From the NCBI RefSeq assembly GCF_020097135.1, contig NZ_CP083608.1:1116001-1180000 (forward strand): DNA of 64,000 nt, written 5' to 3'. This DNA is from Macrococcus armenti. GTDB taxonomy: Bacteria > Bacillota > Bacilli > Staphylococcales > Staphylococcaceae. This document shows positions 1-13,802 of the stretch, piece by piece; position 1 is the stretch's first letter, and each line of letters begins with the position of its first letter. The position numbers were made by a program, and so were the translations under genes. Under the pieces are notes generated by a model. It made no database searches. It saw only the letters and a program-made list of their open reading frames with translations, and was not told where the DNA came from.

Positions 1-1029
1 CTTTGTACCTACAATCTCAGTTTTATCATTATCTTTTAAAGATGCAGCAAAAACCTCTGATGCACTTGCAGACCCTTCATTCAGAATGATAACTATATGA
101 AGCTCGCTTGTCGCACTGTCAGAATCATTTTTAGCTTTAATTGCTTCTTTATTACCCTCTTTATCCTCAGTTTGAACAATGATTTCACCTTTTTCTAAAA
201 AAAGTTCAGCCATTTTTCTTGCCTCTTCTAAGTAACCACCAGGATTATCACGTAAATCTATGACAAGTCGCTTCATCCCTTCGTCATGCATCTTATGTAA
301 CGCTGTTTTAAATTCATCCGCCGTACCTTCCTGGAACTTTGTAACTGTTAATATTGCAGTCCCATCTTTATTTAACTTACTTTCTACACTATTCATATGT
401 ATTTTGTCGCGAATAATTTTTACATCAAATGGCTCTGCATCTCCACGTTTTAACGTTAATGTTACAGCAGTCCCTTTTTTACCTCTTACAAGCTTTACAA
501 CTTCCTGAGTTGATTTGCCTTCTACAGATTTATTATCAACAGCCTGAATAATATCACCAGACTTTACACCAGCTTTTTGAGCAGGTGCCCCTTTAATCGG
601 ACTACTTATCATAATCTTTTTATCTTTTTCTACTATTTCAGTACCAATACCTTGAAAATCTCCTTGCATTGATTCAGTAAAATCAGATTGTTCATCTTTA
701 GTCATATACTCACTATATGGATCGTCTAAACCATTCACCATCCCTTTGATTGCACCATCGATTAACTTTTCTTTATCTACTTTCGTATAGTATTTATCAT
801 TCAAAGTATCATACACGGCGTAAAGCTTTACAAAATCCGAACGCTTCTGAGCATTATCACTAATGATCTTATTATTGCCGCTCAATATCGCAAATGCTGT
901 CACAGCTGCAGTTATGATAATAGTTGATATTATCATCATAATAAATTTAAATGGTGATATTACGTAATTTCTCTTATCATTTTTCTTTTCGTATTTATAT
1001 TGTTCGTATTCCTTATGTTCAGTCATCAT
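1..1029 (-). CDS. ctpA: C-terminal processing serine protease CtpA (S41), 3' end outside window
   Basis: The first 343 codons are present and the gene runs off the left edge. It begins with a short basic cytoplasmic stretch and one membrane anchor (about residues 22-42). A PDZ-like region follows around residues 110-190 (IKGAPAQKAGVKSGDII), then the start of the S41 core. The segment NEGSASASE holds the expected catalytic Ser; the catalytic Lys lies beyond the edge. Members cleave the C-terminal ends of envelope proteins. Two adjacent ATGs (1029 and 1026) are possible starts behind a weak GGATGTGA ribosome site. The gene follows the terminator of the thyA-yozE operon by about 55 bp, so it probably has its own promoter. 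The family call is firm; the symbol rests on similarity to staphylococcal CtpA. Confidence 0.9.
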   Translation of the reverse strand, partial: MMTEHKEYEQYKYEKKNDKRNYVISPFKFIMMIISTIIITAAVTAFAILSGNNKIISDNAQKRSDFVKLYAVYDTLNDKYYTKVDKEKLIDGAIKGMVNGLDDPYSEYMTKDEQSDFTESMQGDFQGIGTEIVEKDKKIMISSPIKGAPAQKAGVKSGDIIQAVDNKSVEGKSTQEVVKLVRGKKGTAVTLTLKRGDAEPFDVKIIRDKIHMNSVESKLNKDGTAILTVTKFQEGTADEFKTALHKMHDEGMKRLVIDLRDNPGGYLEEARKMAELFLEKGEIIVQTEDKEGNKEAIKAKNDSDSATSELHIVIILNEGSASASEVFAASLKDNDKTEIVGTK

Positions 1030-9925: not shown

Positions 9926-10314
9926 TGGTACAAGTTTTCATTGATGCAGCAACAAGACAATCTCCATTACAAAGTGCATGCGGCATTGTTATCAAGCACG
10001 ATAGTTCTATTATAGAACATGGTGAATATCTGGGTGAAATCGATAATCATCACGCTGAGTGGCAAAGTTTAATTATTGCATTAAAAGTATGTAAGAAACA
10101 TAAATTTACATCACTATTAATAAAAACAGATTCAAAAATCGTTGCGGACTCCATTCAGAAAAATTATGTTAAGAATCAAGAATATAAACAATATTTATCA
10201 GCAATTCATGAATTAGAGAAAGCTTTCGAATTATTAATTATCGACTGGATTCCAAGAAACATGAATAAACACGCAGATACGATAGCGAGAAGAACCTTAA
10301 ATCAAATTCATTGA
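9925..10314 (+). CDS. RNase HI-like protein
   Basis: The 129-residue protein has the RNase H fold with a candidate catalytic set: D7 (VFIDAAT), E45 (HAEWQSL), D69 (IKTDSK) and D118 (KHADTIARR). The sequence WIPRNMNKHAD is typical of RNase HI and related RVT_3 proteins. It should cleave RNA in RNA-DNA hybrids, but the substrate is not shown. It starts in the TAATG overlap with the transporter gene. Its last codons overlap the convergent HAD gene by 7 bases, inside a perfect hairpin. Confidence 0.8.
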   Translation: MVQVFIDAATRQSPLQSACGIVIKHDSSIIEHGEYLGEIDNHHAEWQSLIIALKVCKKHKFTSLLIKTDSKIVADSIQKNYVKNQEYKQYLSAIHELEKAFELLIIDWIPRNMNKHADTIARRTLNQIH

Positions 10315-10326
10315 TTTAAGGTTCTT
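10290..10326. terminator. Hairpin terminator shared by the convergent RNase H-like and HAD genes
   Basis: Perfect 16-bp stem (AAGAACCTTAAATCAA and complement) around a 5-base loop. Both stop codons lie within it. The T-tract is short in both directions, so termination may be partial. Confidence 0.6.
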
Positions 10327-11078
10327 TCAATAACTTCAAGTACACCACTTTTATTATTAGATGGCGCAATAAAATTTGCATGATGTTTTACATTAACATC
10401 TGCATTGTTCATCGCATAGCTGTTCTTTGTTAACTGCATCATTGAAATATCATTTTCTCCATCGCCAAACACATAAAGTTCATCAGGATTAATCTGTTGC
10501 TCGTTTATTAAATATGTTAGCATCAATGCTTTATCAACCGCTCCAGTTATATCTATGCAATGCCCTCCGCTATAAACACATGTCAAACTATTGGGAATTA
10601 TCGTTCGGACACTTTCTAATTCACTTCTACGAGATGACACGGTTACTTTTAATATATCATCTTCAATTTCTTTATAATGACTTACTTTTATAAATTCAGG
10701 ATAATATGGCTGAGCAATTTCAATAAAATCCTCATCTGCATTTAACGGTACATATGCATTGTATACTGATGTAGCCACAAAGTTGTAATTATTTTTTGTG
10801 AGTGCAGAAAAAGCCAAATTAAAATCATCACGATTAATCGAAACACTATTAATAACACGTTCGTCCATCTCAAGCAGCGCACCATTTTGAGAAATATAGA
10901 TAATGTTGTCATACGATTCGAAATATTTTTTAAGCACGACGGAATGATTACTACTGGCAACGATAAAATAAATATTTAAACGAAGAAGCTTTTTATATAG
11001 TCGTGCAAACCTAAGTTCATCAAATGTATGCTGATCATTTAAAAATGTGCCATCTAAATCAACTGCGATTACTTTCAT
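10308..11078 (-). CDS. HAD-superfamily phosphatase, Cof subfamily (IIB)
   Basis: Motif I is DLDGTFLND near the N-terminus, with nucleophile D7. Motif II is IVASSNH. Motif IV is FGDGENDISMM with metal-binding Asp residues, and the conserved KALMLTYL Lys is motif III. The 256-residue length fits the Cof-type subfamily with a C2 cap that selects the substrate, usually a sugar phosphate or nucleotide-like compound. The exact substrate cannot be told. Last gene of the dynamin-rhodanese-xni-Fic-like group, 26 bp after the Fic-like gene. Ribosome site AAAGGAA. Confidence 0.85.
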   Translation of the reverse strand: MKVIAVDLDGTFLNDQHTFDELRFARLYKKLLRLNIYFIVASSNHSVVLKKYFESYDNIIYISQNGALLEMDERVINSVSINRDDFNLAFSALTKNNYNFVATSVYNAYVPLNADEDFIEIAQPYYPEFIKVSHYKEIEDDILKVTVSSRRSELESVRTIIPNSLTCVYSGGHCIDITGAVDKALMLTYLINEQQINPDELYVFGDGENDISMMQLTKNSYAMNNADVNVKHHANFIAPSNNKSGVLEVIERTLNQ

Positions 11079-11104: not shown

Positions 11105-12028
11105 TTATTTTAATGTATATCGGGTTGATTTCCCCTGACCTACTTTAATAATTTCATCGTCCTTCTGAAGCGCAACGAGTGCTCTTTCTATTGTTTTCCG
11201 ACTAATATCTGCAAGTTTAATTTCTATATCAGATCTTGCAAGTGGTTGAAACGAACGATTTAATAAATCCAGAACACGATAATAAGGTTCATAACGTTTA
11301 GTGTTAATGAGCTGCATTTGATTAAAAAATTGTTCATAGCATTCAACTAAATGACGAAGGAAAAAAATAAAAAATGAATGAAATGACGTTGAATTCGCAG
11401 TAATTGATTTATAAATATCAATATCTGAAACAATATATGCTTCTAAATTATTATATTTTAGACCGATAAAGTTATGTTTTAAGAGTAATAACGTCATCAG
11501 AAGATGCATAAATTTTATATGATGCGTTTTAAAGGGCTTAAGTTGATTCAAATCATAAATAAACTTAAATATACATTCTAATTCATTACGTAATTTTAAG
11601 TTTGAATGATACGAATCAATTATTAAACGCATTGATTTTTCAGATTCATGATCTAAAGTTCGAATAATATCTGTATTACCTGCCGTCATCTCTAAAAACA
11701 TTTTAATACATTCATCATACGTTATATCTATAAACTCATAATCACTATAAATATAAATAAGTGCATCTCTATACCCCATTAATGCTTCATCATCTGCATC
11801 AATAATCTCTCTTTTGTAATCAATCATCTGTATTACACGTGTATTTGCAAACTGTTTATTACTCAACTGCATCGTATATTTCAATGCATTTATCATCGTC
11901 ACTCGATTTATTTTTATCAATGCTTTTTGATGTGGTTCACTTATTATTTCCTGCATCCCTTTATATGTGTAAATACGTGTTAATAAGTTAACTATTATTT
12001 GCTGTTCATTATTAAATATAGACATCAT
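11105..12028 (-). CDS. Degenerate Fic-fold protein with C-terminal winged helix
   Basis: I chose the ATG pair at 12028, behind AAAGGTGGTG, over an upstream in-frame start; this gives 307 residues. Residues 80-120 (MGYRDALIYIY, then DECIKMFLEMTAGN) resemble the helices before the Fic core. Residues 163-185 (LKPFKTHHIKFMHLLMTLLLL) align with the canonical HPFxxGNGRxxR and its following helix. However, the catalytic His is Lys164, and the acidic residue, glycines and Arg are all replaced. Residues 250-307 form a winged helix (SRKTIERALVALQKDDEI). AMPylation is therefore unlikely; a DNA-binding or scaffold role is inferred. The fold call is by pattern recognition only. Confidence 0.6.
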   Translation of the reverse strand: MMSIFNNEQQIIVNLLTRIYTYKGMQEIISEPHQKALIKINRVTMINALKYTMQLSNKQFANTRVIQMIDYKREIIDADDEALMGYRDALIYIYSDYEFIDITYDECIKMFLEMTAGNTDIIRTLDHESEKSMRLIIDSYHSNLKLRNELECIFKFIYDLNQLKPFKTHHIKFMHLLMTLLLLKHNFIGLKYNNLEAYIVSDIDIYKSITANSTSFHSFFIFFLRHLVECYEQFFNQMQLINTKRYEPYYRVLDLLNRSFQPLARSDIEIKLADISRKTIERALVALQKDDEIIKVGQGKSTRYTLK

Positions 12029-12037
12029 TACACCACC

Positions 12038-12071
12038 TTTATCAGTCATTTTACCATATATGACTGATAAA
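12038..12071 (-). repeat. 12-bp inverted repeat next to the ribosome site of the Fic-like gene
   Basis: Arms TTTATCAGTCAT and ATGACTGATAAA flank a 10-base loop. The arm nearest the gene runs directly into the GGTGG ribosome site. No T-tract follows on the minus strand, so it is not an ordinary terminator of xni. It could be an operator or an mRNA hairpin that controls translation. Confidence 0.7.
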
Positions 12072-12078
12072 GTATGCA

Positions 12079-12951
12079 TTAAATTATGTTTATGAATCTG
12101 AAAACTGAGTTGAGTTCATATTCTGAACAAACATCCATTAACACATTGTTATCTACTACGTAAGACATATTTGATACTATTTCGTCAATATTTAATGGCA
12201 CTTCAGTATGGATTTCAGCGAGTTGCAGAGAGATATCGAGCGCTTTACGTGCATCATTAATTTTATTTTGCTGGCCTTTTGGTAATTCGTCGATCGATTG
12301 TAATACACCACTAACAGAATGATAATTCTGTATAAGCTTAAGTGCCGTTTTTTCACCTATACCTTTAACACCAGGGTATCCATCAGCAGTATCTCCCATA
12401 AATGCTTTTACATCAATCAGTTGAATTGGGTCAAGCTGATATTCATCTTTGAAGCGGTCTGTATCGTATTTATTATAAATATTAAAACCTTTTTTAATAA
12501 GCCAGACTTCAATATGTTCATCCAGTATTTGCAGCAAATCTCTATCACCACTTATTACGGTAATATGATAATTGTTATCCAGACTTTTCGCTAAAGTACC
12601 TATTACATCATCAGCTTCATAATGATGTACACCGATATTCAGAAAACCTAATGCTTTTGAAACACTTTGAGCCATTTCAAATTGTGGAACAAGCTCTTCC
12701 TGAGGCGCAGGTCGATGCGCTTTATAATTTTCATCAATATCATTACGGAACGTTTTAGCACCCATATCCCAACAAACGATAACGTGCTCGGCATTTGTAT
12801 CTTTAATTGCACTTAACGTATGTTTTACAAAGCCTTGAACACCATTAGTAGGAATCCCTTCTGAGTTTTTCATATAATTGCCATGCAGACTCGTTGCAAA
12901 GAAATGTCTGAATAGCAATGCCATACCATCAACAATCAATATATTTTCCAT
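12079..12951 (-). CDS. xni: 5'-3' exonuclease (PolA N-terminal-like, Xni/YpcP family)
   Basis: A 290-residue stand-alone FEN/5'-3' exonuclease. Metal-site motifs are LIVDGMALLFRHFFA, HYEADDVIGTLA, VISGDRDLLQI and VKAFMGDTADGYPGVKGIG. The last leads into the helix-hairpin-helix that grips DNA. The protein removes flaps or RNA primers during replication and repair, overlapping in role with DNA polymerase I. Two bases separate it from the rhodanese gene upstream. All expected acidic residues in the recognised motifs are kept, so it should be active. Confidence 0.88.
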   Translation of the reverse strand: MENILIVDGMALLFRHFFATSLHGNYMKNSEGIPTNGVQGFVKHTLSAIKDTNAEHVIVCWDMGAKTFRNDIDENYKAHRPAPQEELVPQFEMAQSVSKALGFLNIGVHHYEADDVIGTLAKSLDNNYHITVISGDRDLLQILDEHIEVWLIKKGFNIYNKYDTDRFKDEYQLDPIQLIDVKAFMGDTADGYPGVKGIGEKTALKLIQNYHSVSGVLQSIDELPKGQQNKINDARKALDISLQLAEIHTEVPLNIDEIVSNMSYVVDNNVLMDVCSEYELNSVFRFINII

Positions 12952-12953
12952 AC

Positions 12954-13802
12954 TTATTCTCCAGTCTCAATTTTTTCAGGATAAATGTTACACCATTCTG
13001 AAAAACTACCAGCATATAGTGCAACGTCTGCATCAAGCGATTTTAACGCTGCATATAGTGGTGTAGCAGATAATCCTGATCCGCAATAAACAATAGATTT
13101 CTTATTTAATACATCTCCAAATATGTCCTTTAATGCTGCGCCACTTTTTATAAAACCTTGTTCAAAAATTTTGGTGAACGGTATATTAATAGCACCCGGT
13201 ATATGTCCAGCAATCGGATCAATTGGTTCATATTCACCTTTGTATCTTTCGTGATTACGGGCATCAATCAAAATTTGTTTTTCTCCATTATTAATTTCAT
13301 TATGCGTCTTAAAAATCGCACAATTGTATTCGTCATTATAATTTATCGTTTCGTCAGTCATTTCATCAAATTTGACGGATGAAATATATTCGTTTATGTT
13401 AATAAATACTTTATCATCATTATTTGCAAGCGGAAATTGATTCAAATTTTCAAAACTACCGTCAATAATATAACAATTCAAATGAACGAGATGACATAAA
13501 TACAGAAATCTTGTAGCATAAAATCCGTCCTTATGATCAATCGCTATAATGTGCTTACCTTTACTTAAATTGCTGACAGAATGATAAAACAAATTTAAGT
13601 CTGGCAATGGATGCCTGCCACCACTGATTTTATTATCTCCTGTTAGTAATGGATAAATATATATACTATTTTTTATATGCGAATCTAAAAAATTTTGAAA
13701 TGTTGCACGTTCATCATCCATAATACCGCGACAATCAAAAATGATGGCTTCATCTGATGCATATAATTGATAAGCCTCATGCTCATCTATCCATATCTTC
13801 AT
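12954..13802 (-). CDS. Sulfurtransferase with two rhodanese domains
   Basis: Two rhodanese-like halves: an N-terminal non-catalytic half (residues 1-125) and a C-terminal half (about 175-282) with catalytic Cys240 in SIVYCGSGLSATP. CGSGxTA-type loops occur in 3-mercaptopyruvate and thiosulfate sulfurtransferases; here Thr of the common loop is Ser. GHIPGAINIPF is the second-domain hallmark. The donor cannot be decided. Ribosome site AAGGTGATG. Downstream of the dynamin gene by 9 bp and co-transcribed with xni. Confidence 0.85.
   Translation of the reverse strand: MKIWIDEHEAYQLYASDEAIIFDCRGIMDDERATFQNFLDSHIKNSIYIYPLLTGDNKISGGRHPLPDLNLFYHSVSNLSKGKHIIAIDHKDGFYATRFLYLCHLVHLNCYIIDGSFENLNQFPLANNDDKVFININEYISSVKFDEMTDETINYNDEYNCAIFKTHNEINNGEKQILIDARNHERYKGEYEPIDPIAGHIPGAINIPFTKIFEQGFIKSGAALKDIFGDVLNKKSIVYCGSGLSATPLYAALKSLDADVALYAGSFSEWCNIYPEKIETGE

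Follow-up and report, generated by a model that had tools for sequence, protein, structure and literature searches.

Fic enzymes attach AMP to other proteins. According to the authors of the CccR study, class II Fic proteins account for ~80% of the family, and almost nothing is known of their biology (PMC9755527); Kinch et al. had suggested that fic expression may be regulated by Fic-fused HTH domains (PMC2686095). In Yersinia pseudotuberculosis, the active class II Fic protein CccR, which ends in an HTH, dimerises and represses its own promoter through an inverted repeat; this autorepression requires the dimer and the HTH but survives loss of the catalytic His (PMC9755527). Coxiella burnetii CbFic2 (8cil; PMC10628234) is likewise a class II Fic protein with a C-terminal wHTH; it binds DNA, on which it forms dimers. 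CbFic2 is an active AMPylase/deAMPylase, however, and control there runs from DNA to enzyme, not from protein to promoter (PMC10628234). Degenerate relatives have also been described: AvrB, a secreted plant effector of the Fido superfamily, has the Fido fold without the canonical motif, lacks a winged helix and is reported to be a glycosyltransferase (PMC10866546), whereas C. fetus Fic2 is a bacterial Fic protein with a degenerate motif whose toxicity to E. coli is neutralised by Fic1, with no operator described for it (PMC5651007).

Here, we describe a Fic-derived gene in the window, i.e., the whole 64,000-nucleotide stretch of Macrococcus armenti DNA that was analysed. As in CccR, its product (hereafter pseudo-Fic) has a Fic core followed by a C-terminal HTH, and an inverted repeat lies near the -10 element of its own gene; it shares this domain architecture with CbFic2, and the absence of a canonical motif with AvrB and C. 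fetus Fic2. Unlike CccR, an active AMPylase that is also a T6SS effector and whose half-sites lie 26 bp apart and differ entirely in sequence, pseudo-Fic lacks a catalytic motif; its palindrome has a 12-bp spacer, and its gene has no secretion context. By this comparison, pseudo-Fic looks like the repressor half of CccR function with the enzyme removed. We put a probability of about 80% on the full reading, namely, that a Fic-derived protein which has lost its enzyme would bind the palindrome as a dimer, repressing its own gene and that of the HAD phosphatase downstream.

Table 1. Features of the pseudo-Fic locus (window positions, or residues of pseudo-Fic where stated)
Feature	Position	Strand	Remarks
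HAD-IIB phosphatase (PF08282)	10308-11078	minus	starts 26 bases past the pseudo-Fic stop, co-directional
Pseudo-Fic/winged-helix gene	11105-12028	minus	intact ORF, 307 aa
Fic core	residues ~7-243		
Degenerate motif	residues ~162-171		
Winged helix	residues ~247-307		
Putative operator palindrome, TTTATCAGTCA-N12-TGACTGATAAA	12038-12071; core 26-mer 12042-12067		over the -10 region
Extended -10-like element, TGGTAAAAT	12048-12056 (approximate)	minus	inside the palindrome; read from sequence
xni-like 5'-3' exonuclease	12079-12951	minus	directly upstream of pseudo-Fic
Rhodanese-domain protein	12954-13802	minus	variable linker contains the second palindrome
Second operator-like palindrome, TCGTCAGTCA-N12-TGACGGATGA	13351-13382		in the rhodanese CDS, ~1.31 kb upstream of the first
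Double dynamin	from 13812	same direction as pseudo-Fic	upstream of rhodanese

The initial annotation had given no strand for the ORF; it is intact and was found on the minus strand (Table 1), as the penultimate gene of a co-directional series: dynamin, rhodanese, xni, pseudo-Fic and HAD. A longer ORF would begin at 12079, but 12028 is the better start because one at 12079 falls upstream of the likely promoter. Despite this arrangement, a separate promoter immediately upstream very likely drives pseudo-Fic, and the HAD phosphatase is expected to share it. Of the operon with xni, a rhodanese and a dynamin claimed earlier, the shared direction and the intact gene stand, whereas a promoter of its own very likely serves pseudo-Fic.

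Similarity to Fic proteins extends well beyond chance. A PDB search with the single sequence gave one match, to the chain of Fido protein 8uqu (E 4e-6), and a profile of 10 pseudo-Fic sequences matched 8uqu at E 3.5e-21 and, over its full length, a catalytic Fic-winged-helix protein of the same order at E 4e-38. An AlphaFold2 model of the monomer, built from a 7-sequence alignment, reached a mean pLDDT of 87.3 and a pTM of 0.82; the best 48 Foldseek matches to it were all Fic-domain structures, and it superposed by VIA-align on 8uqu with Z 28.6 (229 residues, 1.9 A) and on SoFic 3eqx with Z 21.4. These closest solved folds, namely, the N-terminal domain of a Bordetella bronchiseptica Fic (8uqu) and Shewanella SoFic (3eqx, 3zec), are canonical Fic proteins, and 8uqu reads HPFPDGNGR, which the Macrococcus family does not. 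Residues 247-307 of the model match wHTH domain structures, and the DIP2311-like_C match to this region falls just under the cut-off of that model. Thus, pseudo-Fic is Fic-derived, with the Fic core and the winged helix (given earlier as 250-307) that the initial annotation had read from the letters. At its curated cut-off, the Pfam Fic model (PF02661) gave no match to the window protein, its best hits (E 0.02) being in 2 of the 10 members; annotation overlooks the group, as this model is blind to the window protein.

The window palindrome ends ~10 bases ahead of the pseudo-Fic start codon. A palindrome with the consensus TCAGTCA-N12-TGACTGA occupies the same place over the -10 region in all ten species carrying the gene, although copies are degenerate at L008 and L009 and imperfect in G002, G003 and G007. 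In sister species the -10 element is TATAAT, and the L002 promoter reads TTGATA-17-TATAAT, with TATAAT within the palindrome spacer; the window promoter has no good -35, and a standard promoter search of the window finds none here. The centres of the half-sites are about two helical turns apart, on one face of the DNA. The palindrome pattern occurs once in the 64-kb window against 0 expected by chance, and a PWM built from the ten promoter copies scored its own site there at 36.9, the site in the rhodanese gene at 28.9 and the next best at 11.8.

In catalytic Fic-wHTH relatives, the corresponding promoter position is likewise occupied by a palindrome, but with different letters. More specifically, half-sites follow the winged-helix subfamily, being AAACATAGTCA in one, TTATATTTT in another, TATATATAT in a third and TCGCCTA in a fourth, the last read by eye while the promoter scan picked other repeats for those two genes. 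When the best repeat of each promoter was compared with dinucleotide shuffles (p<=0.05), 8 of 9 promoters of pseudo-Fic genes had a significant inverted repeat, as did 14 of 18 from catalytic Fic-wHTH genes but 2 of 79 control promoters, the controls being drawn from Macrococcus genomes only; as several of the compared promoters are phylogenetically related, combined P values are indicative only. At L008, where the operator copy is degenerate, the significant repeat is a different hairpin. The occurrence of a palindrome at the promoters of both pseudo-Fic and its catalytic relatives is new here, and those lying over the -10 region in most tested catalytic Bacilli relatives constitute specific predicted operators for these proteins.

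Further copies were found outside the promoter. The extended pattern TCATCMGTCA-N12-TGACKGATGA, to which the rhodanese-gene site has 1 mismatch, has three sites each in G000 (the window's genome), G004 and G005 and four in G006, and the reversed pattern has 0-1. Three of the sites are orthologous, lying at the gene's own promoter, in the rhodanese linker 1.24-1.36 kb upstream, and where an ABC exporter gene ends, ahead of miaB; the fourth G006 site is a single one with 3 mismatches. In the rhodanese genes of four species the arms are conserved within a linker that is otherwise barely alignable, and we consider this site probably a second operator. Weaker aligned copies in G002 and G003 (19-20 bits) could be explained by conservation at the protein level. 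The third site, which follows directly on the stop codon of the heterodimeric ABC exporter, is confined to the M. caseolyticus group (L043 3944-3977, L044 3952-3985, L045 3979-4012), and miaB's own conserved promoter lies beyond it. We initially read it as a plain terminator, but within each of these genomes its 10-base arms are identical, or nearly so, to the arms of the rhodanese site; it may be an operator, and it may double as a terminator. Across the genus, a regulon search with the short pattern AGTCA-N10-16-TGACT did no better than its reversed control; the fixed N12 spacing alone separated signal from noise. Recurrent near-matches in SufD, an M16 peptidase and an ABC permease were set aside, as they lie within CDS and mostly have asymmetric arms. 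All copies in gapless genomes lie near mid-chromosome; a role at the replication terminus was rejected, given no dif site in the window, a steady GC skew and mostly single sites in other species.

Since all of these elements are perfect or near-perfect inverted repeats whose outer arms vary symmetrically between species, they might instead be RNA hairpins (terminator, attenuator or stability element), as the G005 copy after the ABC exporter, which scores as a terminator (20-pair stem, T-rich tail), would illustrate. We regard this explanation as unlikely. The pseudo-Fic promoter has no T tail and no terminator match, and its -10 element falls within the loop, which means that transcripts starting there would lack the hairpin. 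Moreover, the same letters recur at unlinked places, beyond what complementarity demands, and the position relative to the -10 element is kept in catalytic relatives even though their letters differ. These observations argue for DNA operators.

To characterise the catalytic site, the ten members were aligned with ~20 catalytic relatives in which the motif reads HPFxDGNGR or is a close variant of it. Residues 160-175 of pseudo-Fic, LKPFKTHHIKFMHLL, align with IHPFNDGNGRMSRLL of the relatives; in the window protein (KPFKTHHIK) the His has become Lys, and the acidic residue, both glycines, the Asn and the Arg are all altered, while the following Leu-rich helix is retained. The initial annotation had described these changes, apart from that of the Asn. 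All of the checks that it proposed support it: the structure prediction has a Fic core, the motif is lost throughout the clade, and the alignment with catalytic relatives is full-length. HPFx[D/E]GN[G/K]R occurs in 0 of 10 Macrococcus/Macrococcoides species. The extent of loss nevertheless differs between species, as G005 and G006 keep a partial motif (HAFQEDNLK and HIFEEDNRK, glycines lost), a HxFxEDNxK pattern restricted to these two, whereas the goetzii/bohemicum group has no trace of it. Two further features are missing: (i) the class II inhibitory motif [S/T]xxxE[G/N], with the SNxIEG of relatives replaced in 10/10, and (ii) the substrate-docking beta-hairpin flap (GGRWKxxDNxIxE...F), deleted or shortened in 10/10 by alignment, the model having no strands there. 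The window protein is a real pseudo-enzyme. Neither of these two losses was in the initial annotation. One catalytic relative, L078, reads HPFNDGNER where HPFNDGNGR is expected, possibly an early step of motif erosion.

Degenerate Fic proteins can still act as enzymes with altered chemistry, and the toxicity of C. fetus Fic2 (PMC5651007) and the reported glycosyltransferase activity of AvrB (PMC10866546) set precedents; in addition, the Fic core is under purifying selection, and G005 and G006 retain the motif His, Glu and Asn. We nonetheless find such an activity quite improbable here, as no catalytic-loop residue is common to all ten proteins and none of them has the flap or the ATP-phosphate glycines; they have lost the inhibitory Glu too, as expected with nothing left to inhibit. 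It is very improbable that pseudo-Fic serves as a partner or antitoxin-like decoy that heterodimerises with an active Fic/Doc protein: neutralisation of one Fic by another is known (PMC5651007), and some of the ten genomes have another Fic/Doc-family protein, but 5 of 10 have no PF02661 match at all, yet pseudo-Fic is kept in every one. The window genome itself encodes a separate short Doc-like protein, a 133-aa frame with an intact Fic-family match (L121, G000:C1:267216-267470).

Pseudo-Fic was found in 9 of 9 same-genus genomes (the window's included) and one sister-genus genome, i.e., in 10 of 108 Staphylococcaceae genomes; the other genera sampled in this family gave weak winged-helix matches at most. 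Public records of it come from Macrococcoides and Macrococcus, and catalytic relatives are scattered across Bacilli. The dN/dS of the Fic core was 0.08-0.16 in six pairwise comparisons of closer sister species and 0.26 in the most divergent pair, and that of the winged helix, the most conserved part of the protein (ADISRKTIERALV), was about 0.05-0.12 in most pairs. Both domains are under purifying selection; the remaining fold is therefore selected, as the initial annotation had supposed of the gene. Unequal erosion of the motif across species could suggest a decaying pseudogene, a reading refuted in practice by the ten ORFs, all intact although identity drops to 28%, by the dN/dS of the two domains, each well below 1, and by a conserved promoter.

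We propose that the ancestor of pseudo-Fic was a class II Fic-winged-helix AMP transferase, and that loss of the catalytic loop, the inhibitory Glu and the substrate-docking flap would have left a DNA-binding protein. A pseudo-Fic dimer would bind TCAGTCA-N12-TGACTGA over its own -10 region and block RNA polymerase, keeping its own expression low and probably holding down the HAD phosphatase downstream too. The Fic core would now most likely be a dimerisation scaffold, possibly a sensor. Negative autoregulation is the most likely mechanism, and one by which the active Fic-HTH protein CccR has been found by experiment to act. That a pseudo-enzyme may act as a transcription factor, the option of most interest to the initial annotation, gains independent support from the palindrome at its own promoter in ten species and the same architecture in catalytic relatives, the binding itself being predicted. 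Macrococcus pseudo-Fic would represent a natural case of an enzyme turned gene regulator and, within a large and poorly understood enzyme family, of functions separated by selection, with DNA-binding self-control kept and chemistry discarded.

Pseudo-Fic may do more than repress itself, because in the M. caseolyticus group neither of the two additional copies sits at an obvious promoter. A regulator class of the following kind on the Fic fold has not, to our knowledge, been described. It is possible, though on balance doubtful, that the dead Fic core is the sensor, for some ligand, of a dedicated one-component regulator with few targets that would control its own gene and HAD, use the rhodanese site as an auxiliary operator 1.2-1.4 kb away to close a DNA loop (like lac O2), and act at the ABC exporter/miaB site.

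The surroundings of the gene vary between genomes. A gene in reverse orientation, encoding a protein of 179-180 aa (MTSLTIQQAIFISSKLRAQLDN...), borders pseudo-Fic on its upstream side in G001, G007 and G008 (L118 5551-6836; L005, L007). Relocation of pseudo-Fic away from xni was considered for these three; in G007, the one analysed over the full region, it is still downstream of xni, split from it by the inserted reverse gene, and its promoter palindrome is retained. In the sister-genus genome G009, pseudo-Fic is followed by an aminotransferase and a FolD-like gene (L112 3285-5364); the downstream partner is not fixed, because the aminotransferase stands in HAD's place. The G009 protein is the most divergent (28%) although its MiaB is close, with 92% to the window species versus 85-86% for the same-genus G001-G003, G007 and G008 (L104 versus L105-L109), pointing to an odd genus boundary or gene history.
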